Assembly: GCA_003971905.1 (NCBI GenBank)
Contig: RSEE01000017.1
Coordinates: forward strand, 124,001 to 188,000
DNA from: Moniliella sp. 'wahieum'
Lineage: Eukaryota > Basidiomycota > Moniliellomycetes > Moniliellales > Moniliellaceae
Direction: 5' to 3'
Length of the DNA: 64,000 nucleotides
Shown: positions 1,427-63,230 of the stretch, piece after piece
Layout: every line of letters starts with the position of its first letter
How positions within the stretch are numbered: position 1 is the first letter of the stretch
Made by a program: the position numbers and the translations under genes
The notes under the pieces: generated by a model
Databases searched by the model: none
The model's input: only the letters and a program-made list of their open reading frames with translations
Told to the model about the DNA's origin: nothing

Positions 1427-3105
1427 ATGCGCCTCTCCACTGCCTTTGGCCTTGCCCTCGCTGCTGCCGTCGCCTCCGCGCGCCCCGCCCCCCAGAACCG
1501 CTTTGTGCCCGGCGCAGACGTGCAGGATGCCTCGGTCATCCCCGCTGCCCTCCGCAGCGCTCAGGACCACTTGGGCGAGCTGCCCGGCAAGTACATGATC
1601 AAGCTCAAGAACGGCGTCTCCACCGCCTCCTTCCTCGCCCACCAACAGCTCATTGCTGCCGCCCAGGTCGAGGCCAGTGCTTACCGCGGCTTTGGCGTGG
1701 CCACTGCCGCAGAGCATGGCATTCGCCACGTCTACGACCTGGATGAGCACCTCCAAGGTTACGCCGGCCAATTCACCGACGATGTCCTCGCCTTTATCCG
1801 CGCCCAGCCTGAGGTGGAGTATGTCGAGCGCGATTCGATTGTCACGACGCAGGAGATCCGCCCGGATGAGCATTCTGCCTGGCTCCATGACTTTTCCACC
1901 CCTTCCGTTTCCACCAAGGAGCACGAGCACCTGACTGAGAAGGGTGCCCCCTGGGGTCTCGCCCGCATTTCGCACCGCGAAGAGTTGGGCTTTGGCAACT
2001 TCAACAAGTATGTCTATGACGAGGCTGCCGGCGCAGGTGTGACTGCCTACATTATTGAGTACGTTTTTGAATGCCCCCCTTTTCCGTGCTGTTCCGCCCC
2101 GGAGGCTGACCTTGTTTCCCCAGCACTGGCATTTACATCAACCACAATGACTTTGAGGGGCGTGCCCGCTGGGGCAAGACCATCCCCTATGGTGACGGGG
2201 ATGTGGACGGCAACGGACACGGCACCCACTGTGCCGGCACGATTGGCGGCAAGACGTACGGTGTGTCGAAGAATGCCGACTTGGTTGCTGTCAAGGTTCT
2301 GAGCAGCTCGGGTTCGGGCACCATGTCGGATGTGACAGCGGGTGTGCTGTGGGCTGTGAACGATGCCAAGGAGATCTCGGCCAAGCTTGCTACGGCGGAC
2401 GCGGCCACGCGCAAGAAGCACAAGGGTTTCGTCGCCAACATGTCGCTCGGCGGTGGCAAGTCGCCCACCCTCGACGCAGCTGTCAACGGTGCCGTTTCGT
2501 CTGGTCTCCACTTTGCCGTTGCCGCAGGCAATGAGAATGCGGACGCGTGCAACACTTCGCCTGCTGGTGCCAAGCTGCCCGTCACGGTGGGTGCATCTGA
2601 TGTCGGTGACAAGCGTGCCTACTTCTCCAACAAGGGCGCCTGCGTCGACATTTTTGCGCCCGGTTTGAACATCAAGTCGACGTGGAACACGGGCAAGGAC
2701 GCGACTGCGCTGCTGTCCGGCACGTCGATGGCCACGCCCCACACGGTGGGCCTTCTTGCCTACCTGCTTTCGATCTATGGATCGGACGACTTTGCCACGA
2801 TCAAGGGGGCGATCCCGATGCCCACGCTCGAGTCGGTGGCGGCGGCTAATGCACAGCGGGACTTGACGCAGGTGTTGCGCAAGCACGCTGCGACACTGCT
2901 GCAGGCTGCGCCTGTGCCCGCTGCTGCGCTCGAGTGGATGCTCGGTTCGCTCGTCTCGGCGCCCGAGACCAAGGCGTCGATTGTGTCGGTGCTGCACCCG
3001 ACGGATCTGAAGGATGCGTTGCTCGGATTTGCCACCAAGAACACCCTGACGGATGTCCAGGGCAGCCCCAACCTGTTGGCCTTCAACAATGCTACCTCTT
3101 TCTAA
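1427..3105 (+). CDS. PRB1: vacuolar proteinase B-type subtilisin (cerevisin family, S8)
   Basis: Serine endopeptidase of the proteinase K/cerevisin family, expected in the vacuole lumen or secreted, where it degrades proteins and activates other hydrolases. The N-terminus (MRLSTAFGLALAAAVASA) is a signal peptide. It is followed by an inhibitor I9-type propeptide (GKYMIKLKNG and a YVERDSIV end). The catalytic triad is visible: Asp211 in YIIDTGIY, His243 in NGHGTHCAG and Ser412 in SGTSMATPH. One intron (2059-2123, GTACGT...CAG) splits the Asp codon. Splicing gives an uninterrupted protein of 537 residues, so this gene has no frameshift, unlike many neighbours. After the catalytic domain there is a tail of about 110 residues not needed for the protease fold. 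The ATG at 1427 is chosen because it begins the signal peptide; the frame is open further upstream without similarity. Vacuolar versus secreted location cannot be settled from sequence. Confidence 0.93.
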
Positions 3106-11263: not shown

Positions 11264-13405
11264 ATGGCCTTCTTCGACCCCTCCCTCGCCTCTACCGCCG
11301 CCGCTGCGTCTCTTGCAGCCCCACTCGCCGCCAGCTCCCTCCTGGCCCAGGCGCCCAAGACCATCGTCTTCCTCGGCGAGGCCGACTACGGCCTGCCCGT
11401 CGCTCTGGGCCTGCTCAAGTCGGGCCACCGCGTCCACCTCGTCGTCCCTCGGCCCTCACCCTGCAGACCGCCCTGACTTCGTTTTCCTCCTTTGCCCCCG
11501 CTCTCTCGGGCTCCGTCCTGGCCTTGGACGCGGCACCCAACTGGCCACCGGCGGTATCGGCCCGAAGCCGCGTACGCGCGCCTCTTTTCTGAGCCCAGCG
11601 TCGGGGGTGCTACTGCGGACCTGGTGTACAATGCAGTCGGGTGCTGCCCTTGCCGGAGCCGACATTTTGTCTTCGCGCATTAACCAGGAGATTGCGAGGA
11701 ACGCTTTGCTCAGTCGGTGGTGGGCCTGAGCCAGATCCCAGCAACAAGCCGCCACCCTGGTTTCGGCCAACAAAAGGCCGCTCGGAGGCCAGCCAGCTAT
11801 TCTCCGCTTCCTCGAGCTGGCTGCCCAGCAGTCCAACTTTTTCGCCTCCAACCGGAGGTCTCGTCCCAGCTGCCAGCGAGGCCGCTATCAGGCCAACCAA
11901 GCTGCCGAAGGTGGCTACCTTGGCTGCCCAGACGGCGGCACGCAAGTCGCTCATCGCCTCCGAGGCCGCCGATTCGGCCGTGATCAAGTCAGCGGCAACC
12001 ACCGAGGCGAGCAACATTGCTACCGCCAACCGCCAACCTGTTGTTGTCATCTCCCCGTTGCTTTCCGACCTTTTCCTGACTAACCTTTGAATCTTCTTCC
12101 GTCCCACAACAAGCTTGCGTATGAGAATGGCATTGCAACCGTCGGATCTACCGCCGCTCTCCAGGCTGCGGCTGCTACAGGGTTGACGGGCTACGACTCT
12201 CTTGCTGCTGCTCAGACCGCAGCTGCGGCTGGCCTGACGGGCTATGGATCCGTGGCTGCTGCCGAGGCCGCGGCTGCTGATGCCGCTGTTCTGGGCGGCT
12301 ACGGTTCCCCGCTGCCCTCCAAGCTGCCACGGCTGCTGGACTGACCGGGTACGGATCTACCGCTGCCCTCCAAGCCGCTACGGCCGCTGGGTTGACCGGC
12401 TATGGGTCGGCTGCTACGGCTAAGGCTACTCTTGCTGCAGGTATTTCGGGCATTGGATCTGCCGCTGCTCTGGAAGCGGCTACCGGGATTACCTCGGCCG
12501 ATGTGGCCGCGGCACTTTCGGAGACGGTCGCGTCGCGTTCCATCCAGACTGCCCTGGACAGCGCGCTGATTCAAGCTGGTGTGACTGGGAGCAGCATTGC
12601 CTCGTCGTTGGCGGCCATTAAGAATTCGGCCCTGACCCAGGCTGCCATTTCCAGTGCGGTCCAGTTTGCGGCGGCGAGCGGCGCGTATGAGCAGCAGGCG
12701 ACACTCAAGGCGGCTGCCTACGCGGCCGTGGCTCAGTCCTCGCTTGCCGCGTCGGTGGTCAAGGCGAGCCAAGCGGCCGCGGTGGCACGCGCGATCCAGG
12801 CCCAGTCGCTCGGTGTGGCAGCGACCTCGGTGGTGGCCAGTGCGATCCAGCAAGCTGCTGCGTCCAGCTACGCTCGCTCGGTCGTAGCGCAGGCCATTCA
12901 GCAGCGCGCTGTGGCCCAACAGGTCGCCGCTTCGAGCCTTGTGGCGGCGCGGGCGCAAGCTGCGGCTTCGAGCGTGATTGCCGCGCGCACCCAGGCCGCG
13001 CTGGCCGCGTCGGCGCAGTCGAGCGTGACGCAGGCCATTGTGGCCAACGCGGTGGCGCAGTACGGTTCTTCGGTGCTCAACTCGGCGGCCGCGGCGGCCG
13101 TGGTGCAGGGTGCGTTCAACACTGCCTTTTCGCAGGCGTCGCTGTTGGGTGGGGCGGGCAAGGTGGCGCAAGCGGTGCGCTCGGCGTCGGTGCTGGAGCA
13201 CCTGACTGGCACTCGGCAGCCGCTGCTCGAGACGACCAAGGCGCTGGCTGCGATCAACTATGGCATTGCGCCCTCGGCCTCGGTTGCTGGCCTGCTGGCG
13301 GGGTTGCCGGCCAACTACCCCGTCTCGTCGGCGACGCGTCTCTTCTCGCTCAATGCATCCCCGCTGGCGGCGCTGGCTGCTGCGCGTGGCTTTGCTCGTC
13401 TCTGA
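11264..13405 (+). CDS. alanine-rich silk-like repeat protein (frameshifted)
   Basis: A large intronless gene of about 710 residues when frameshifts are allowed for. I do not recognise the family. The start MAFFDPSLAST leads to a beta-alpha segment (KTIVFLGEADYGLPVALGLL) resembling the opening of a Rossmann-type fold. The middle is rich in Ala, Ser and Gln. From 12180 to about 12490 there are about six 17-residue units of the form GLTGYGSxAAxxAAxAA, encoded by 51-bp DNA units. The rest (to LAALAAARGFARL at 13405) is almost entirely Ala/Ser/Gln/Val in helix-like registers. No signal peptide or obvious membrane segment. Frame changes occur near 11450, 11530, 11600-11660, 11720, 11880, 12090 and 12310; the last removes one base from a repeat unit. 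The composition recalls silk-type structural proteins, but that is only a resemblance. Confidence 0.62.
12180..12490 (+). repeat. 51-bp coding tandem repeat
   Basis: Units begin at 12180, 12231, 12338, 12389 and 12440, each starting GG(G/C/A/T) and encoding GLTGYGS or GISGIGS followed by an alanine-rich half. Spacing is 51 bp between adjacent clean units. The unit between 12231 and 12338 carries an extra few codons and a one-base loss. Confidence 0.85.
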
Positions 13406-14459: not shown

Positions 14460-14559
14460 GGGGCTCAGCGGGAATTGAACCCACGACCACCTCTATTCGA
14501 ACTGAGTCCAGCTCGGGAACGAACCCGAAAGAGGCATGATACCACTACACCATGAGCCC
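14460..14559 (-). tRNA. tRNA-Pro(CGG) with 28-nt intron
   Basis: Read on the minus strand: acceptor GGGCTCA pairs with TGAGCCC, the D arm is GGTGTAGTGGTATCAT, the anticodon stem CCTCT/AGAGG is perfect, and the loop TTCGGG+T holds anticodon CGG. The T arm GTGGGTTCAATTCCCGC is standard. An intron (14496-14523) sits between positions 37 and 38, as expected for eukaryotic tRNA introns. The loop TTCGGGT is the usual one for proline CGG. Confidence 0.82.
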
Positions 14560-14837: not shown

Positions 14838-14922
14838 CGCCCCACGTGGGACTCGAACCCACAACCGTGAGATGGACCTCTGCAGTAAGAGTCTCAAATT
14901 CTACCGATTGAAATAGCGAGGC
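14838..14922 (-). tRNA. tRNA-Lys(CUU) with 12-nt intron, copy 1
   Basis: Minus strand: acceptor GCCTCGC pairs with GTGGGGC, D arm TTTCAATCGGTAGAA, anticodon stem TGAGA/TCTCA, loop C-T-CTT-A plus A after the intron, T arm GTGGGTTCGAGTCCCAC. The intron is 14874-14885. A second gene with the same mature sequence lies at 26656-26739. Confidence 0.88.
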
Positions 14923-15197
14923 GCGTTGGCATACCACGCGGCCTCTACCGACCCGATACCCTGGCGGCCCATTCGGTAGCCTCGCACATGTCGATCGCGC
15001 ACCTCTCTTGCCTGTCTACATCTTATTTTCGCAGGGCCGCTATGGCATGGTCTGCTTGGTCTGCCTGATATGGGGCAAGCAATGGGCATCCAGATGAGCA
15101 TGATAAGCATGTTGCAGCCGCACCATTGGCCGCGGCATAGGCAGAGGCAGAGGCAGAGCCAGAGCCGGGCCTGGGTAGGCAGGGCAGGGCAGGACAG

Positions 15198-18100
15198 TTA
15201 AGCCAGCGCCACCCCGGCCACGGTCGGCAGCAGCATCGCATCTACCTCGGGGTGCGTTTCGAGGAGGAAAGCATCGAGCGAGGCAAAGGTGTCGACGTGG
15301 GCATGGGACCCCTTGGGGTGCTGCGACGCCTTTTGCGGGTACATCCCGCTCTCGTCCAGGGCGGTAAAGTCGATGCGCAACCGACTCGGATCGTCCAGGC
15401 CAGGTTGGCCGACACGGACGAGGTGGCTAAACTGCGGCTGTGGACCGCGTTGCTGCGCCGCCTGGCGCGCGGCGGGGTAAGACGAACGAGGAGTTGATGT
15501 CCCATGAGTCGATGCCAAACCGGCTGACTTCCTTGATGTGGTGCCGCTGCAGCCCCGGCGGCGGCGGCGTCGGCCCCACGTCCCACGCGACCAGGTCCGC
15601 ATCGAATGCGACGACAGACCAAATCAGGCCCGGATGCTCAATGTGCAGCGTCACGTTGCGCAGGCCCTGGTCCCAATCAAAGTGCTCGTGCGTGACCGTG
15701 ATGCGGAAGTGCGGGTGGTGGGCAACGCCGTGCTCGGGCGCAGGCAGGCGGTACTTGTACGGCGCGATAAACTGACTGACCGGGTAGAGCGGATCAAAGT
15801 CCGGGTTCCACGGGTGCATCTCTACCTTCTCTGGCAGGCTACCGACAAACCCAGTGTGCTGCGCTGCGTCGTGGATCACCTTGGCCAACGATGCCGAGTC
15901 GGGATCGGCACCGCCCATGTTCATCAACCACTCGCCCGAGGTGAGGTTTTGAGTTTGGTGGACAAAGAGCCGTTGCGGGTGGAGCTGGTCAAACGGCTTG
16001 AACGTGGCAAAGATAGCCATTGTGACGACGGTGGCGCCGGCCAAGAGCTGGATCGCCCGCTGGCGCGACTGGGTGCCAAAGCGGTGAGAGAGCGGGATGA
16101 GCGCCGGCGCAGAGAGCAGGCACATGCCGCCCACGATGGTCGCGATCAGGTGGTCCGCCGGCGCATCTTCCCCCGTACGGCCTGTGAGCGGGGTAAAGAG
16201 GTCGAGGAAGGTGGTCAAACCCTCCAGGCCAACGGTGCAGGCAGAATGGACATGAGAAGGTAGGTGGACCAGTGGACACGCCGGTCAACAGGAATGCGAT
16301 GGAGATCAATGTTGGACATGCCGACCTGGCACATGTCATTGTACGCCATGCTGCTCAACCCCATGATCACCGCCAGCAGAGCCAAGTACGCCGAGCCGAG
16401 TGAAAACACATTGGCAATGAGAAGTGCAAAGACAAAGGTAGCCGTGATGCCGGTGAAGGAGGCGCGTTCCATATACGGCCGGTTCTCGGGCCGAACCAGG
16501 CGCGAAACAGCCGACTGGATCAGCACCATGCCCAATATGGCAGGGGGCAAGTAGAGCACCAACGGGGCCCATGGGTGGCTGAACCAAGTGAGAGGGCGGT
16601 GAAGGACATAGGTCATGATGGCGGCCACCACGTTGGCGCCCACAATCCCGCCTACCATTGAACCAAGGGTACCGAGGAGCGCAGCGAACGAGGCAAGGTA
16701 CACCTGGAATGGCTTATCACCCTCAGCGATCGCCTGGATGGCAAAGTTGAGCCAGACCGTGGTGGCCATAGAGATGGATCGGAAAAAGGTGGGCGAAAGA
16801 AGGACAAAGTAGCGGGCGGCCCAGGTGAAGAAGTAGGGCATCTCGTTGAATGGCGTCGGTTCGTAGACGCTGGAAGCTTGTCGGATGTGGCGTTGGTAGC
16901 AGCCAAGTAGCGGATGAGAGAAAGCACATTGTCGCCCATGTGCTGCACCACGCCGGGCGGAATGTGCTCAGGCGTGTCACGGCGAGTGTGGTAGAGGTAC
17001 GAGTCGCCGACAACGGCCATATCCAGTCCGGTCAAGTTGGCATACTGGACAAACTGACGGAAGTCCGTGTCAGACAGGATGAGTCCGGTAGCAAAGACGT
17101 CGTTGGCCAAAACGGTGCCAAACGGATGCGGAACCTGAGCGTACGCCTCTAGGAACACATGCGACGTGGCCTGGAAGAGCAGCTCGGGTCCCGTAACGCC
17201 ACACGCCTCGAGGTTGATCACACCACGAACCGACTTGACCGTTTCGTGCTTGGTCGAGTAAAGGTGGGAGGCGTCTTGCAGGCTTTCCTCGCCATTGTTA
17301 AAGAGGAGGATAACCGAGTGGTGGAGTTCAGGCAACGGACCCGTCGTCAAGACACGCAGGACATCATCCAGCACTCCCACTGCAGCCGCATCGTCCGCTG
17401 CCCCGGGGGATGGGAGGGTTGAATCGAGATGCGCATTGACCAACACTGCGTTTTCCTACCCCCGATTCCACATCAAGAGGTCAGCTTCCCGTAGCCAGCA
17501 TAAGCGCCAAGAAAATAGATACGCACCTTGCCCTCGTCGGTACCGTCCGAGAGGCGGACGATGACGTTGGAGATGCCATAATACTTCTTTTGCACGACGG
17601 CCGACATGAAGTCGAAGCGGTGCGATCCGTCGTCAATCTGGCGCCAAGCCTCAACCTGGACGCCGGCAAAACGCTCGCCTTGGGTGGAGTTCTTGCCCGG
17701 CACGGAGGGGTTGGGGTACCACCCCACCTTGGCACTCACCCGGTCCCAAAGCCAGTCCTCAGCCTCGACATGCTCGCGCGTGCCGACGATGCGGTAGCCA
17801 ATGTCGTCGCTCAGGTAGCTCATGACCTGGCGTGCATTTCCTCGGAAAAGGGCGCAGCTTGCCGGCGGCCGCAACGGCCGAGCTGGCCTCGAGCGAGATG
17901 GGGTTGGGCAGCTTGTAGTGCAGAAAGAGGGTGATGCCGGTCAGGGGGCATACCAGGCCAGCAGGGCAGGGAGCAGCAGCAAGGACTTGGATGTGAGCTT
18001 GTAGAGAGGCGACGTGGCAGGGTTGGCGTCATAGGGCACCTCGCGCTTGCGGGTGCGCGCAACGGTGCCCGTGGCGGCGACATTGGCAGCCGAGGGCGGG

Positions 18101-23320: not shown

Positions 23321-23640
23321 TCGCCCACGCTCGGCAGGTGCAGGAGAGGGGGACGGAGCGGGGCTTACCCGAACAAGACGAGTACTAGACGAGGACTGAT
23401 TAATGATCCGTGATTAATATTGAAGCCAGCCAGCCTGGCCGGCGGACTGAAGAACGCGGGCGGAGCCTCGTCTATTCCGCAGCCGGCGTCGATGCAGGCA
23501 GCGAATGCGGTGGCCAGGGGGGCTACAATCAGAACACGAATCACAAGTCACTTCGCTTGCCGCCTTGGCTCGCCCTCTCCGCTCGCGTCTTCCACACCTC
23601 CCGCCCCCACCACCAGCGCTCGCGCCGCAAGTGCCCCACC
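23321..23640. promoter_or_regulatory. divergent promoter, carrier-like gene and RecQ
   Basis: 320 bp, with GATTAATGATCCGTGATTAAT near 23397-23417. No TATA box recognised. Confidence 0.4.
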
Positions 23641-26076
23641 ATGCCGCTGCCGCCTTTGGCGCAGTTCGTCGACGGGCTCTCCGAGAGAGATGCACATCGC
23701 GCCCACGCACTTGAATCCGCGCTGGAGCAGGTCGAACTGCAAATCACCAGCTTGCGCAAAGAGCAGCGCCGCCTCCTCGCCGAGCGCCAAACCCTTGCCG
23801 ACCAGGCTCTTCGCGCCCTCGAGCGCCAGGGCGGGCGCACCAACCGCCCGCCCCGCGCCGTCGATTATTCCAGCCCCGTGAATGCCGACGCAGCTGGCGT
23901 TGTAAGGGTGGCCAAACAGTACTGGCCTGGCTTTCAGCAGTTCCGGTACTGTCAACAAGGTGTCCTCCGTGCCGTCTTGGACCGGCGTCACGTCTTTGTC
24001 GTCATGCCAACGGGCGGAGGGAAAAGTTTTTGCTACCAACTTCCGGCACTGTTGCAGCCGGGCGTCACACTCGTCATCTCTCCCTTGGTCAGTCTCATGC
24101 ACGACCAAGTCGAGCATCTTCGCGATCAAGGCATCCCTTGTGACCTGATGACGGCGGCCACCCCACGCGAAGACAAGACGCGTCTCAACCGCTTGGTCCG
24201 CAGCATGACATCGGAAAACAACCCACCTATTGCTGTTTTGGGCTCCAAGACGGTTGCTGCCCTGGTGGACGAGGACGAGCGCCCGCCCAAGCTGCTCTAC
24301 GTGACGCCTGAACAGCTGACCAAGAATAAGACGCTGCGCGCGGCGCTGCAAAACGCCGAGGAGGCGGGCGCCTTGGCACGGATCGTAATCGACGAGGCTC
24401 ATTGCTGCAGTCAGTATGGCCACGACTACCGTCCCGACTATCGCAAGCTCGATCTGCTCACCAAATTCTTCACCCACACCCCCCTCTCCTGCTTCACCGC
24501 CACCGCGCCCTATGCCGTGGTCGAAGATGTAATTGAATGTTTGGGCATACCCCAGCTTACCCCAGCTGACCAGGCCTTGCCCAATGGAACGGTGCACTTT
24601 ACTAGCCCCCTAATCCGACCCAACCTCACATATTCGGTCTTGCCGAAAAACACTGGGAAGGACGAGTATGCGGATGTGGCGAATTACATTCTCTCCTGCC
24701 ACCAAGGCAAGACAGGTATGTGCCACCTCCTCTTTGATAATGTGCCCTGCTAACATTCGACATTGTCCGCAAACAGGCATTGTCTATTGCCTTAGCCAAA
24801 AGAATACGGAGGACATGGCCAAGCACCTCACCCAACTCAGTGAGGGCAAGATTCGTGCTCGGCCCTATCATGCAGGTATGGCAGACACTGACAAGACGCG
24901 GGTCCACCAACGCTGGATAGAAGGGCAGGTCCATGTCATTTGCGCCACAACCGCATTTGGAATGGGCATCGACAAACCCGATGTGCGCTACGTCGTGCAC
25001 GCCACCACACCCACCTCCATCGAGGGGTTGTACCAAGAGTCGGGGCGAGCCGGACGGGATGGGGAACCGGCCGAGTGTGTTCTCTTCTACCGTCCGCAAG
25101 ACGGGGTGCGAATCGCCAGTGTGGCCTCCGATTCGCCAGGCGGCAGCGATAAGGTGCGGGGCGTGCTGGAGTACAGCCAAACACTCGAGTGTCGCAAGGT
25201 GTTTTTCAGCCAGTATTTCGAAGACGCGCACAGCGACCTATCTCCCTGTGGAACGTGCGATAATTGTGTGGGGCATGACGAGTTGGGCATGCGCGACGCC
25301 AGCGTTGAGGCATGGAAATCGCTCCATGCTCTGGCTCGGATCAAGTTAGACCAAGGCCGCGTCACGCTTGGTCAGCTCACCGACCTGGTCCGAGGGAACA
25401 ACCGCGGTCGATACGAAGTTCTTGGTGGGCCAGATGGGCGCTCCATCCCGATCAGTCCAGCCGTGACAAGTGTCAAACCGCCGGGCAACTTGTCCAAGGT
25501 GGGTGTTGTGGATATGAACGACTTTGGGGGCAAGGTGCTCTGACCAAAACCAATACTGAACGCCTCTTGGTCGAACTTTGGGTTCGGGGCCATATCCGTG
25601 AAGAATACGTCCAGACACCACACACGGTGAATGTGTATCTCGACCTGGGGATTGAGTCGTGGGCGCTCCGCAAGATGACTCTGAAGCAAGTGGAGGAGAT
25701 GGTGCGTACGGGCCAAGGTAAGGAACGCGTGTGTGTGAGCGTGTACGGCAAAGACATGGATTCTCCCGCGCGCCAGGGCGAAGCCCTGAAATCCAAACCG
25801 CGGACTACAAAGACCAAGCCCAACGCCAAGACCGAGTCACGAGGGGAGAAACGCCGCCCCCGCCAGTCCCATTCCATCACCCGTGCACCCCATTCGGCCG
25901 TTGTCTTGAACGATGAAGAGAGCAGTCCGGACCAGGACGTGACGATCGCCGCCGACTCGTCCGACGAGGAGGCTTTGGCCGTGCGTACGCTCAAGCGCCC
26001 TGCCACTTCATTCGGCTTTCCAGCAAGCAAAGCTCCGCGCTATGAAATTGTCGACAGCAGTGATGACGAACCATAA
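23641..26076 (+). CDS. RecQ-family ATP-dependent DNA helicase (RECQ1-like)
   Basis: 3'-5' DNA helicase acting in recombination and replication-fork repair in the nucleus. The N-terminus forms a coiled coil (ESALEQVELQITSLRKEQRR). The helicase core shows motif 0 (FQQFRYCQQGVLRAVL), Walker A at M122-S129 (MPTGGGKS), Walker B DEAH at residues 251-254 (IDEAHCCSQYGHDYRPDY), CFTATA, and in the second lobe GIVYCLSQKNTED, TTAFGMGIDKPDVRYVVH and QESGRAGRDG. The RecQ zinc site follows (ECRKVFF, CGTCDNC), then a winged-helix region ending RLLVELWVRGHIREEYVQT. The basic/acidic tail lacks an HRDC domain. One intron (24716-24776) contains the branch site CTAAC. A single frameshift near 25537 separates FGGKV from TKTNTERLL. 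ATG 23641 is preferred over upstream in-frame non-ATG codons. Confidence 0.95.
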
Positions 26077-26655: not shown

Positions 26656-26739
26656 CGCCCCACGTGGGACTCGAACCCACAACCGTGAGATGGACCTCTG
26701 AATAAGAGTCTCAAATTCTACCGATTGAAATAGCGAGGC
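26656..26739 (-). tRNA. tRNA-Lys(CUU) with 11-nt intron, copy 2
   Basis: Mature sequence identical to the gene at 14838-14922 as far as read. The intron (26692-26702) is one base shorter and differs at its 5' end on the tRNA strand. Confidence 0.88.
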
Positions 26740-29227: not shown

Positions 29228-32079
29228 CTACGTCTGCTCCAACAGCATGGGGCGTACCTGCAAACCAGTGTGCCGGAGGCAGGTATGACATGCGATGGGT
29301 CAGCACACAGACCATAGAAGACGCACGGAGCAGGAAAGAATGAGTGGTGCAGCGATTCACGTACCAGCTCTAGGAACTGTGGGAGTAGCTTGGGGATCTC
29401 AAGTAGCTCTGGCTCTGGCAGTAGGCGAGGGTCGGGAATGCCCCCCTTCTCAAATGGCGATGTCTCTGCCTGCGCATCGGCCTCCATCTCTGTTGCCCCG
29501 CCGGTGGTGGTCGAATTAAATCCGAGGATGGAATGGCCAAACGTGTCTCCCTCGAGTCCTTGGCCACTCTGCGCCGCAAGCTGTCGACGAAGGCGTACCT
29601 CCCGCAGCCACTTGGCCTTGTACGCATGAAGGATCAACACATCCGTCTCGCGCAAAATCGCATCCCGCATCGGGTCCCACTCTTTCGGTAAAAGCGCCTC
29701 CATATCCACCTCGCCAATCCCTTGCCGTTGCGCCACATCGGCACTGGCGCCCTGGCCACGCAAAAAGTCAATAAACCGCTGCGCATAGTCGATTAGTCCG
29801 CCAAAGAGAACATGGCCCTTGACTTGGGTTTCGTGGATAAAACGATAGATAGCCTCCTCATGACGGCCGACGAGATCTTGGAAGACCTGGTACATAACTG
29901 TTGGGTTTTGTCGATAAACTGGCGCGGGAGAAAAGTCAGCGTGGCGCAACAAGATGGCTAAAGGGAACCTACCTTCCTGGTTGGCCTTGACCGTTTGGGC
30001 CAAGTCATCACAAAATGACTGTATGTCCCCCACAAAGTCGGAGGCATGCGCGTCACGGTAAATCAGCCAACGGCGTGATAAACATGGCGACCACATCGCG
30101 GAAGAGATCAGCGATAATACCCCCCGTGACCAACGACTCGAGCTGTTCATTGTCGTGGATCTTGAGTTGAGCAACCATAAGTGCATGGAAATCGTCCAGG
30201 AGTGTCGAAGGCCCAGTGAACTCACCTTTGGCTCGCGACACCCTGGCCTTCTCTACCCGCTCCGCCTGGGATGGCGACAAAGGCGGGCCACATACAGTGC
30301 TGGTCAGAACAACAACGGGGAGGGGGAGACGCTCCCGTTGAGAATGCATCTTGAGTTGCATTCGCTTCTCAGTCGGCAGGTCCACATATGCGCTTAACTT
30401 TTGGACCATCAGAGGGTCGTTAATCCGTAGCGCTGCGCTCTGTGCCATCGCGTGTCGCTGTTTCGTGCCCTCGGAAAGACTTGCGCCGCTTATGCGTTGC
30501 AACAACGACTTGCTCCCCAAGGGTTGCGCCAGAAATACGTTCATCACCCCTTTGATCATGGCCGCTGGGTTGGTAATGTGCAAAACAGCCGACAAAAGTG
30601 AATAGGGCATGAGAAAGTTGATTTTGCTGAAAGAGGCAAATGTCGCGCTCCCATTGTTCGAACCAATAAAGGACGTATAGAGCGAAGCGGCCATACTCAT
30701 CTTGACCCAACCCATCATCGCGCGGTAGTCCTCAGGTAAGTCCTTGAGCTGGGAAGTGGTACGAAACACTGAAAAGACCTTGTCGAGTCCATCAGGCTGG
30801 GACACTTCGTATTTGAGCTTGCTGAGCAACGACCGTAACTCCGCTGCTCGTACTTCACTCGCTTCAGCAAATCCTACTGTCGCTGTCTCCCGACGAGCGT
30901 CCATTTCGATCCGGAGAGAAGCGTCCTCCATCTCCGCCTCTGTAAGCTCAATCGGGGAGGCATGCAAAAATGAGTCGAGGGTCTTGCTCGTCCGCATCAC
31001 TGGTATCTCGGCCAAGTCGCGTAGGTAGGCACGTAACGATTGGCGATTGGTTTCCCGCGCGAAAACGGGAGAAGATGAGGCGGCGGACACATCCCGGTTC
31101 GGCGTGCTAGCACCGCTAGTTGGGGTGGAGTTGGAACTACTACTACCCAGAGTCAGGCCAAGTAATCTGTCGGACAGGGACTTGCTCACACTGCGTATCC
31201 TCTCATCAGGGGCAGGGTAGTCTTTGGGAGGGAGGTCAGGTACCCAGACCAGAGGTCCGACTTCTTTTTGAAGCCTGTGCTTGAGATGTTCAAAGTCAGT
31301 ATATGTACGGGCGACATAGGTGTCGTCCGTTCCTTTGCCCGCATTGGACGCAACAATAAACTGCGAATTAGCCAAGTCGGCCTTCTTGCCCGGCGCAGCG
31401 TGAGGTACGCGAACTGCAATAATGTTAATCGCCAGTGTGGCCACATCTTGCTCACCACTGACACCAGCCTGCTCGGCAGCCGTGATGGCCTGAAGATCTT
31501 GGTCGGTCAGCTCAACAACCTGCTCCGCCTCGCCTGGTGGGATGCCAGGTGGGGGCTTTGCAATGATAGCCGCAGCAAAGAGCAGCGTGACGTAGCGCTC
31601 CCCCGATTTGCGATTTTGCGGCGTTTGCTGGGCTCTTCGCGATCACCAGAATCGGAGATGTTGGACTCGTAGAACTCTTGGGCCAACTGTTGGACTTTGG
31701 GGAAAAAGCCAGCGGAGGCCTGCTTGACAAGGGGGAAGGTGAGGACCCACTGCTGGAAAACATAACGAAGAAAAGGCAGATCTGCGGCCTGGATGGGGGC
31801 GCCGGGGACCGGATGGAAGGGAGCGCCGAGCGCGGCCAGAGCATCTGAACGTACGGGTCCAGGCGGAAGGAGCGGGGGGAAAGGGGGGAGGGGAGGTTAG
31901 GGTCAAGCGAGTGACGGAAAGATGCAAGACGACGAACTATTCTGGTTGAGGATGGCAAGCTCGTGCTCGACCTGGAGCTGGACGAGGGCCTTCTTGAGGT
32001 AGTGAGTACGCAGCGGCGTGAGTACGCCGGGCGGGCCCGGGTACGGCGGCTGGCCTTGGGGCACCTGAGCCGGAGCCAT
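29228..32079 (-). CDS. PX-domain lipid-binding protein (YPR097W / Lec1 type)
   Basis: Membrane-associated lipid-binding protein of the fungal YPR097W group, linked in yeast to lipid distribution. Exon 1 opens MAPAQVPQGQPP with LTPLRTHYLKKALVQLQ. The next exon carries LGAPFHPVPGAPIQAADLPF and RYVFQQWVLTFPLVKQA, which form the characteristic N-terminal associated domain. The PX domain follows (YVARTYTDFEHLKHRLQ, VPDLPPKDYP). Then comes the long C-terminal associated domain (VKMSMAASLYTSFIGSN, HEEAIYRFIHETQVKGHVLF), ending EIPKLLPQFLELVRPMLLEQT. Introns: 31845-31937 (GTTCGT donor), 29919-29972 and 29258-29364. Frame changes: about 31607 in a G run, and about 30063. It converges on the CCC1 upstream region and diverges from TOM20. 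Confidence 0.87.
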
Positions 32080-60279: not shown

Positions 60280-63230
60280 ATGCCCTCAACTCCTGATCCT
60301 CCCTCACCAACAGACGCAAAACGCAGACAATCTCTCCCTTCTCGTGTCCAAACCCGAGACCAAGCTCAAAGTAAGGACATGTCTTCTCCTTCGCAACCAG
60401 ACCACTGGACAAAGTCTGACGCTCAACCCTCAACTGACCCAGGTCCAGGCAGAGGTCCTCCTCCCCCTCTCCCGGCCATACATCGGCGGCAACACACAGC
60501 AGCAACAGCAGCAGCATCCACAACGGTCCCGCCCACATGGTGGTCCAGCATATGTCTGGCCTTACGCCACAGCTACCCGACTGTTGCCGCTTACCCCCCT
60601 TACACTGTACCGTCCGCCCGCTTTGGCCAGGAACCCGCGACGACATATGCGGTTCCATCACAGATGCCACCGTTTCCACCGCCTCAACCTCCCGATTATC
60701 CTTCTTCCACTGGATCTCAATCCCAATACGACCGTCACCACCCTTCTTACCGTCTCCTTGCTCCAGCCCACCACGTGCCAAACACCGGTGCCGTGGTGGG
60801 CTCAGGCCCAGCATTCTATGCACTGGGAGTGCCACCGGTAAGCTTACATTTCTCTCTCGTGACCGCATTGACTTGTCGTGCCCTCGCGGCAAGATTGGCT
60901 TTAGGCTGTTACTCACCACTCCAGTCTCATGCAGGTTGTTGATCATCCTCTTACGATGTATCGCTCTTGGCCTACTTACCAGCCAACGTACGAAACCTAT
61001 CCAATGGCCCCCCTTCCCATGTACCAAGCCCCACCGCCTTTGTGGTCGTCAACATCGAATCAGCCTGCTTCGTCCAACACTGCCGCTGGCGCCGTACCCT
61101 CTGGCGCGGTCTCGTCTTTCTTGCCGGTGACGAGCCACGAGCTCTCCTCTCAAACCACCTCAGCCACCCAGTCACCTTCCGCGATGTCCTCACCCCTCCC
61201 ACTGAGACGGGGACCCAACCGCGTGTCAAGCCTTCATTGGCGGAGAAGGCTGTGGCCGTCTCGGTCCCGGAGCCGAGAAAAGTGGGTCTTGGCAAGCCGC
61301 ATCCGACTGGAGAGGCGAGGACCGGCCTTGATCCTGCTGAGAAAGAGCCAAGCAGCATGCTCACCGACGCGGCTGCGAGGTCTGCTGCTTCACCAGTCAA
61401 GCCCGAAGACGGCCAAGGAGATGACCGCAAGCTTGTCCGTTCTGAACATGTGATGTGGGTGGGCAACGTGCCCAAGGACGTCACTGCGCTGCAGCTCTGG
61501 CACTTTCTCCAAAACAGCATCCTTCCTCCGTCTTCCTCGCCCCCTGCCCACCTCAGGTTCGCCTTACCCGCTCTTCCCTCTCCCGGCGAGACCAACATGG
61601 ATGCCAGTTCTTCTCTCTGGGCTCCCTCACGGGAAACGATGAGCAGCCTCACTGCCTCTGAGGTTCCCGAAGCTTTGGACTGCGGCATTGTGTCGATCTA
61701 CGTGATTGCTCGGTCGAACTGTGCGTTTGTCAACTTTGATAACCACTCCGATCTTATTGCCATGGTCGAACGGTGCGATGGTGCTCGTCTTCGGATGGGA
61801 CGGGACGAACTTCCGCTTGTCGCGCGGGTACGTGACCGGCACGAAGAAGTGGAAGCCGGTGTGGCTGGCCAACGGGGCAAGGGCTTCCATGCTGCGTATG
61901 CGCGCAACTACAATCGCACCAAGTTGGCGCAGCGCCAAGCTCGGCTCAAGCAGGGCATGGATCGCATGGCCATTGGCGAAAGTAACGACCTCGTGGGTCG
62001 CGCTGGTCCCTTGTCCGATGAAGAATCCATGGGTAGCTGGGTATCGGTCGAAACCAGCGCTTCTACCGATTCGTCCTTGCTTCGCCACCCTGCCTTTGCC
62101 CAGCGTTTCTTTATCCTCAAGTCGCGCACGGTCGCTGAGTTGGAGAAATCGGTAGAGACGGGTACCTGGACCACACAGCCACACAACGAAGCAGTATTGG
62201 ATCAAGCCTTTCGCAATTCAAAGGACGTGTTTATCTTCTTCTCGGCCAACCAGAGTCGATCTTGGTTTGGTTATGCTCGCATGACTTCCTCCCTTAATTT
62301 CACCGACGAGCCCTTCCAGCTTCTTTCCCATCCGCCAAGCGGCCAGAGCCGCACGAAACACACGTTGGCTAATGCTGGTGGTACTGCCGCCCTTGGCCCC
62401 TCACCGGCATGCGTTCCCGACAACCACAAGGAGGGAGAAGGAGAACCAGCCGAAGGCACGCCGGCCAGCCCTGCTCAGCGGCCCCCCTGCACCATACCTC
62501 CTCGGGCTTTTCCGTCTCCTCTCCCTCGATTTTGGAAGGGTTGGCGCGGTATACGTTGGCCAAAGCTGCAGGCATTCGATGGGATCCGGGGCAAGAGTAC
62601 GACCCCCCTTCTCCCCTCGTATCCCCCTCTTCGAACGACGGGTCGATAACATCCACAGTCGCCCACTCGGCCCCGGCTGTCGTGCAAGCGCAGCACGCGG
62701 GCCGATTGTTATGCGACTTGTCTGACGGAACGGGGAAGCAAGACCGATCCCTTTCTCCTACCTCGACGTTTTCGGGAGGCAAATCAACAGCCCATCCGCT
62801 CTCCCCCGAACCCAAAACCTTTTCCATTGAGTGGATCAAGGTGGAGACCATACCGTTTGTTGCGTCACGTGGGGTGCGCAATCCGTGGCGGGGCAACAAG
62901 CAAATCAAAGTGTCCCGTGATGGGACCGAGCTCGAGCCAAGCGTGGGCCGAAGCCTCAAGGCGCTGATGGATTCCTACTCCTCTGAGGCTCTCACCGCAA
63001 GAGGAAAGGGCAAGTTAGTGGATCAGAGAGAGTCCACAGCATCCAGCCTGCCCATCCCTACTCATGCCCCATCGTTTAACTTACCCCTCTCCCATGGCAC
63101 CTCCCAAACCCAAGCAGCCCCTCCGCTTCCCACCAAACCTTCCACCTTGGTCCCAATTATTCCTGGCAAGAAACGGGCGGGTCTCGACGCAAGGGAGGTA
63201 AGAAACCAAGATCAAGCTAGGGGGAAATAA
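60280..63230 (+). CDS. YTH-domain m6A reader with RRM (Mmi1/YTHDC-type)
   Basis: RNA-binding protein that reads N6-methyladenosine or directs selective RNA decay. A Pro/Gln-rich N-terminus (MPSTPDPPSPTDAKRRQS) continues over a 97-nt intron (60838-60934) into VVDHPLTMYRSWPTYQPTY. An RRM follows: EHVMWVGNVPKDVTALQLWH (RNP2-like) and IYVIARSNCAFVNF (RNP1-like). The YTH domain starts RFFILKSRTVAELEKSVETG, then WTTQPHNEAVLDQAF, SANQSRSWFGYARM, is interrupted by roughly 180 residues of low complexity, and resumes FSIEWIKVETIPFVASRGVR, NPWRGNKQIKVSRDGTELEP. Tryptophans suited to the aromatic cage are present (WTTQ, SRSW). Frame changes lie within exon 1 (60420-60600), near 61200 and between 62400 and 62570. 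The stop at 63230 follows a possible GTAAGA donor, so a further short exon cannot be excluded. Confidence 0.9.

Follow-up and report, generated by a model that had tools for sequence, protein, structure and literature searches.

Silk proteins, whether spidroins or fibroins, combine glycine-rich repeats with long polyalanine blocks, and proteins of the LEA and perilipin types are strongly charged, the LEA proteins being built of highly charged 11-residue repeats. SDRs carry a GxxxGxG cofactor motif and a catalytic YxxxK. The disordered proteins associated with the septal pores of ascomycetes are intracellular, of low complexity, and gather at the pores. Among fungal repeat proteins, Cprp, which carries S-Y-G-S repeats, gathers next to septa in a basidiomycete, as observed with Cprp-GFP, and its core motif was likened by the authors to a motif of human granule-forming RNA-binding proteins; according to the same paper, DDR48 and Cprp have an abundance of Asn, Ser, Asp and Gly and are predicted to be disordered (PMC10512284). 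The gene described here lies in a window of 64,000 nucleotides, by which we mean the whole stretch of DNA that was analysed. As judged from its sequence, the encoded protein was matched here to no known family of Pfam, NCBIfam or PDB, and a description of such an alanine-rich repeat protein was not found in the open-access literature searched. We tentatively propose, at somewhat less than even chances, that it has a structural role in the cytosol, probably without catalysis, as a helical scaffold with a disabled Rossmann-type head.

Gene structure, coding signal and the 17-residue repeat

The locus at 11264-13405 is a real gene, the features of which are collected in Table 1. The ATG at 11264 and the opening KTIVFLGEADYGLPVALGLLKSGHRVHLVV share one reading frame, and the predicted intron contains a branch-site-like CTGACTAAC and ends in AG in all four copies compared (window, C66, C16 and C4); its donor reads GTGTGT in C66 and GTATGT in C16 and C4, the GT being altered in the window copy. 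A TATA[AT]A element is also found at -126 (C66), -107 (C16) and -102 (C4) relative to the ATG, the density of this pattern in the window being 0.24 per kb with both strands counted, and was not seen in the 250 bases 5' of one ATG of C26, a copy of which the true start is uncertain.

Table 1. Coordinates of the repeat gene and its parts in the window
Feature	Position	Strand	Remarks
Gene	ATG 11264, stop 13403-13405	+	from window sequence
TATA-like element TATATAA	11139..11145	+	125 bases 5' of ATG
Exon 1	11264..12040	+	short Ala/Ser-rich lead, Rossmann-type N-terminal part, Ala/Gln/Ser-rich stretch; several frame breaks
Probable intron, phase 0, 73 nt	12041-12113	+	from comparison with three other copies
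Exon 2 including stop	12114..13405	+	frame break near 12300; open 12311-13402
Repeat segment, 17-residue units (Gly-Tyr-Gly turn and putative Ala-rich helix)	12129..12535	+	
Ala-rich, predicted helical domain, common to three paralogues	12602..13117	+	172 residues
C-terminal tail VLEHLTG...RLFSLN	13180..13402	+	common with C16/C4

Between 12449 and 13390 the differences between the window and C16 copies number 67 among 307 first, 44 among 309 second and 134 among 307 third codon positions, and by this codon-position bias the 3' half of the gene is coding. Over the same interval the window and C66 differ at 6, 1 and 6 sites, which are too few to judge. In exon 1, the comparison of C66 with C16 gave 60, 68 and 80 differences by phase over the whole exon; when this exon was divided into five 150-column blocks, two displayed one strongly dominant phase (not the same in both), one a slight excess and two none.

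Strict repeat units following the pattern G(L/I)(T/S)G(Y/I)(G/D)S begin at 12180, 12231, 12338, 12389 and 12440, accompanied by the degenerate units GIATVGS at 12129 and GGYGS at 12294 and by a terminal GITSADV at 12485, and GYGS itself occurs in the units beginning at 12231, 12294, 12338 and 12389. Over the 110 residues with which the open piece 12311-13402 (364 residues) begins, the identity at lag 17 is 0.366, a value reached by none of 2000 composition shuffles at any lag from 2 to 39; the 17-residue repeat is far above chance. Neighbouring units of this piece differ in DNA at 11, 3 and 23 of 36 sites each at codon positions 1, 2 and 3, and since the differences fall mainly at third positions the repeat is maintained at the level of the protein; no 51-bp period was reported by Tandem Repeats Finder. 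The initial annotation had recognised a real repeat protein here, as the shuffles bear out, and its count of about six 17-residue units is fair because five are strict and seven are reached with the degenerate ones. It had also asked for a correction of the frame, rightly so, since no single frame stays open throughout from 11264 to 13402. In composition, the open piece contains 32% Ala, 13% Ser (12.9%), 9% Leu, 8% Gln, 8% Val, 6.6% Gly, 1.9% Asn and 0.5% Asp, and its longest alanine run is of five residues; charged residues amount to 6.6% of this piece and to 14% of the C54 piece.

Paralogues, apparent haplotypes and neighbouring genes

Upon searching the genome assembly (69.5 Mb, 223 contigs) at least three related loci were found, all of them as pairs (window/C66, C16/C4 and C54/C26), and on the strength of these paired matches each pair apparently represents the two haplotypes of one locus. 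Identity is 95% between the window and C66 copies and about 70% between the window gene and its C16 and C4 counterparts; C54 and C26, compared as protein, show an identity of 45-53% with the window copy in those pieces that were found. The C16 and C4 copies adjoin the same two tRNA genes and the same M28 peptidase gene as the window copy. At the DNA level this peptidase gene is 81-82% identical between the window locus and C16/C4, compared with the about 70% of the repeat gene, which on this measure therefore evolves faster than the peptidase gene.

The C54 and C26 pieces carry the Rossmann-type N-terminal part and the Ala-rich helical domain, while no GYGS unit was seen by eye in the pieces read from them and the C-terminal tail was not recognised in the C54 piece. 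In C16 and C4, five and six looser Gly-Tyr units, respectively, are found together with a long AAQTY-like stretch. As no GYGS unit was seen in the C54 and C26 pieces, which retain the N-terminal and helical parts, the silk-like stretch is a variable segment lying between shared parts rather than a shared core; it was either gained in the first two pairs or lost in the third.

Several observations were made on the surroundings. Between C16 and C4, a segment of about 4.5 kb containing the gene and the two tRNA genes is inverted (L010:2040-6515 versus L011:1461-5972) with collinear flanks, and the inversion may be either real or an assembly error. The tRNA genes of the window identified with Rfam, all on the minus strand, lie at 14460-14559, 14838-14922 and 26656-26739, the last of which resembles the counterparts of the second (98% in C66, 97% in C16 and 96% in C4). 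The M28 peptidase gene, which is also located beside the C16 and C4 copies, occupies 15186-17182 on the minus strand, downstream of the repeat gene; Peptidase_M28 matched at 16655-17455 with an E of 5e-38 and ERMP1-TM only with an E of 0.057, and the frame of this gene is also disturbed in the window when compared by eye with C16. Elsewhere in the window, open pieces at 2110-3102, 23407-24750, 30056-31642 and 60943-62646 match the subtilase, DEAD-box helicase, PX-DUF3818 and YTH-domain families, respectively. Another contig of the assembly (C178:1-8000) starts with CCCTAA telomere-type repeats, followed by an 18S match that is truncated 5' and then by 5.8S and 28S; as the 18S pattern also occurs in C2 and C33, in both cases 185 bases into the contig, the rDNA may abut telomeres. 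By eye, this 18S looks divergent for a fungus. Taken with one dynein heavy chain at each of two places in the genome, an STE3-type receptor scoring above the Pfam cut-off and a search for IFT57, run with no positive control, that gave no match, it would point to a fungus devoid of flagella, perhaps one of the Dikarya, and a basidiomycete is plausible.

A probable Rossmann-type N-terminal part and a predicted helical domain rich in alanine

C26, the copy open across the N-terminal part, was used as query. Against NCBIfam with E up to 10 it gave four matches (E 0.006-0.12, far below the curated cut-offs), namely two 'SDR family oxidoreductase' models, gluconate 5-dehydrogenase and D-xylose 1-dehydrogenase; when trimmed to 143 residues it kept three of the four (E 0.012-0.07), the best match having weakened to E 0.012. 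Its sole match in the PDB was a short-chain reductase (E 0.15) and its sole match in Pfam was NAD_binding_7 (E 0.098). Likewise, a 40-residue N-terminal fragment of C66 matched sulfolactaldehyde 3-reductase (E 0.007), and a PDB search with a profile built from five fragments of C26, C54, window and C66 returned eight rows (E 0.13-1.9), six of them from dehydrogenases, reductases or dipicolinate synthase and two from alpha-protein kinase 1 chains. Six of the seven controls (one reversed and six shuffled sequences) were without matches, and the remaining one, a shuffle, reached E 0.007 with unrelated families, so that the E-values of the Rossmann matches, taken by themselves, do not exceed chance. 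What favours a Rossmann type is not these weak values but the concordance of two paralogues and of three libraries, and the Rossmann-like opening proposed in the initial annotation is upheld by matches that are weak and mostly consistent across NCBIfam, PDB and Pfam.

Four strands can be distinguished by eye (KTIVFLG, RVHLVAP, GSVLALD and DLVYNA), and the domain seems to end there. In the in-frame pieces of window, C66, C26 and C54, also inspected by eye, the GxxxGxG cofactor motif was not found, the glycine pattern being GxxxxGLP in window and C66 and GxxxxGAS in C26 and C54. No YxxxK was seen by eye at a matching place common to the paralogues; a YEEAK present far downstream in C54 and C26 is not conserved in the window copy. 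With no strand apparent beyond the fourth and with a changed glycine motif, the domain has probably lost catalysis.

Alignment of the helical domain from the window, C54, C4 and C16 pieces (four of the six copies, two being partial and beginning out of frame) revealed 31 invariant columns, 15 of which are alanine. AlphaFold2, run on single sequences, modelled the 364-residue piece as helix only, with a mean pLDDT of 46.1 in the best model, in which three repeat units form helices of 12-13 residues and the next one a helix of 8; the helical domain alone was modelled as two long helices (pLDDT 70.6 in the best of five models and 68.3 to 48.7 in the others; pTM 0.36). Since alanine-rich sequences are readily predicted as helix, these models are suggestive only, and so is the helicity of the repeats and tail that they would imply. 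An amphipathic-helix periodicity was absent, the observed helix power being reached by 181 of 200 shuffles in the window helical domain, 115 of 200 in the third paralogue and 180 of 200 in the repeats. The window pieces and the C54 helical piece had no significant match in Pfam or PDB, nor did the helical pieces in NCBIfam. Matches to TraT (E 0.05 and 0.06), to an engineered protein (E 0.58) and, with a C4 piece, to a reovirus domain (E 0.035) were attributed to composition and discarded. Among prokaryote genome contigs the 172-residue helical domain gave 309 pattern stretches, none of which was confirmed, and no match was obtained among plasmids.

Frame integrity, function and comparison with known systems

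It may be asked whether the gene still yields a protein, as all four alignable copies (window, C66, C16 and C4) are frame-broken, mostly at differing places, and frame changes are also found in C54 and C26, where introns are possible. The four-copy alignment contains 56 frame-changing gap runs in the gene, a count that takes in the intron, the start-codon region and a poorly alignable expansion at about 12382; 49 are located before 12449 and 7 after. The same asymmetry is observed within the pairs: between window and C66 there are 23 gap openings and 60 mismatches per 1159 aligned bases in the 5' half and 3 gap openings and 15 mismatches per 950 bases in the 3' half, and between C16 and C4 the figures are 24 and 81 per 1592 bases and 2 and 41 per 1006 bases, respectively. 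A decaying gene family, in which the breaks are real and some copies are left without a protein product, would agree with four broken copies out of four and with a concentration of the breaks in the 5' half. Nevertheless, 39 of the 49 gap runs of the 5' half are private, with the gap in one copy or in three; the codon-position bias persists in the 3' half; and indels are common between haplotypes elsewhere, one 9.2-kb alignment having 186 gap openings versus 137 mismatches, even though mismatches exceed gap openings in the other four main haplotype alignments (264/203, 85/48, 106/52 and 54/46). In addition, a dynein heavy-chain match is interrupted at both places found in the genome, where an intron is possible. 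We consider decay very unlikely, and assembly error the likeliest cause of the frame breaks, although it does not fully explain the nearly clean 3' half.

If a protein is made, its nature has to be weighed among several possibilities, of which a silk, a LEA-type protectant and an active enzyme are all less likely than an intracellular helical scaffold. The initial annotation had considered the protein silk-like, and a secreted silk-like or cell-wall structural protein would be in line with the alternation of Gly-Tyr turns and Ala-rich blocks, as well as with a beta-type periodicity in the repeat segment that only 9 of 200 shuffles reached in a hydrophobic-moment test. Such a protein is highly improbable, however, given the Rossmann-type head, the variability of the GYGS stretch among paralogues, the helix-only outcome of both models and the composition of the 364-residue open piece, in which, with 6.6% Gly and no alanine run beyond five, neither glycine-rich repeats of the silk type nor long polyalanine are found; moreover, no signal peptide is obvious by eye in the first 35 residues, as had been noted before. 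Of the earlier suggestion of an intracellular fibrous or scaffold protein, the intracellular scaffold is thus plausible and the silk-type fibre is unsupported. The abundance of alanine and the predicted helicity might instead indicate a stress protectant or coat (LEA-like, antifreeze-like or a lipid-droplet coat), whose helices would form on drying, ice or lipid. We regard this as unlikely, since the 6.6% and 14% of charged residues in the window and C54 pieces depart from the strongly charged LEA and perilipin types, no amphipathic periodicity is present and the best period is of 17 and not 11 residues, that is, the highly charged 11-residue repeats of LEA proteins are not found. The weak N-terminal matches, mostly to dehydrogenases and other Rossmann proteins, would be expected of an NAD(P)-dependent oxidoreductase that is active and is anchored or clustered by means of a long, alanine-rich tail; this is decidedly unlikely in view of a domain that, by eye, ends after about four strands, of GxxxxGLP or GxxxxGAS in the place of the SDR GxxxGxG, and of the lack of a YxxxK at a matching place across paralogues.

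Returning to the helical scaffold, we hypothesize that the Rossmann-type half domain would constitute a head, followed by the 17-residue units as short alanine helices linked by Gly-Tyr-Gly turns and then by a long alanine-rich helical rod, and that rod and turns might self-associate to give a scaffold or a condensate. That the site of action is a septum or a condensate is a conjecture by analogy. A broader proposal, which we rate as possible and rather on the unlikely side, is that of a new fungal family whose members have an alanine-helix rod headed by a disabled half domain of dehydrogenase type, and whose paralogues bear exchangeable self-association modules between the conserved parts; the fast change of these modules would adjust how a scaffold inside the cell, perhaps a septal plug, assembles. 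One pair would have the 17-residue GYGS helix-turn units in regular form as its modules and the second the looser Gly-Tyr units with the AAQTY-like block, none having been seen in the third. If this is right, it would be a structural repeat protein built in parts, from a non-catalytic enzyme-type fold, a helical rod and paralogue-specific low-complexity modules between them, and the three paralogues would offer a natural comparison for the contribution of Gly-Tyr-Gly helix-turns to self-assembly in living cells.

Among known systems, spider and insect silks resemble this protein in the alternation of Gly/Tyr-containing turns with Ala-rich blocks and differ from it in that here glycine is low, alanine runs are short, no signal peptide is obvious and the models are helical. 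SDR and other NAD(P)-binding Rossmann proteins are weakly similar in sequence to its first three to four strands, whereas here, by eye, the glycine motif is altered, the domain is apparently truncated and no catalytic motif is held in common. With the septal pore-associated disordered proteins of ascomycetes the analogy is a functional one only. The septal analogy with Cprp rests on a short motif, and the composition of Cprp differs: relative to the published description, the window piece, with 32% Ala, 1.9% Asn, 0.5% Asp and 6.6% Gly next to 12.9% Ser, does not show an Asn/Ser/Asp/Gly-rich repeat of the DDR48/Cprp type, and it is further set apart by a Rossmann-type head and predicted helix. 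Like DDR48 and Cprp as portrayed there, the window gene nonetheless encodes a fungal repeat protein with a Gly/Ser-Tyr-Gly/Ser core, multiple copies of which are found (PMC10512284).
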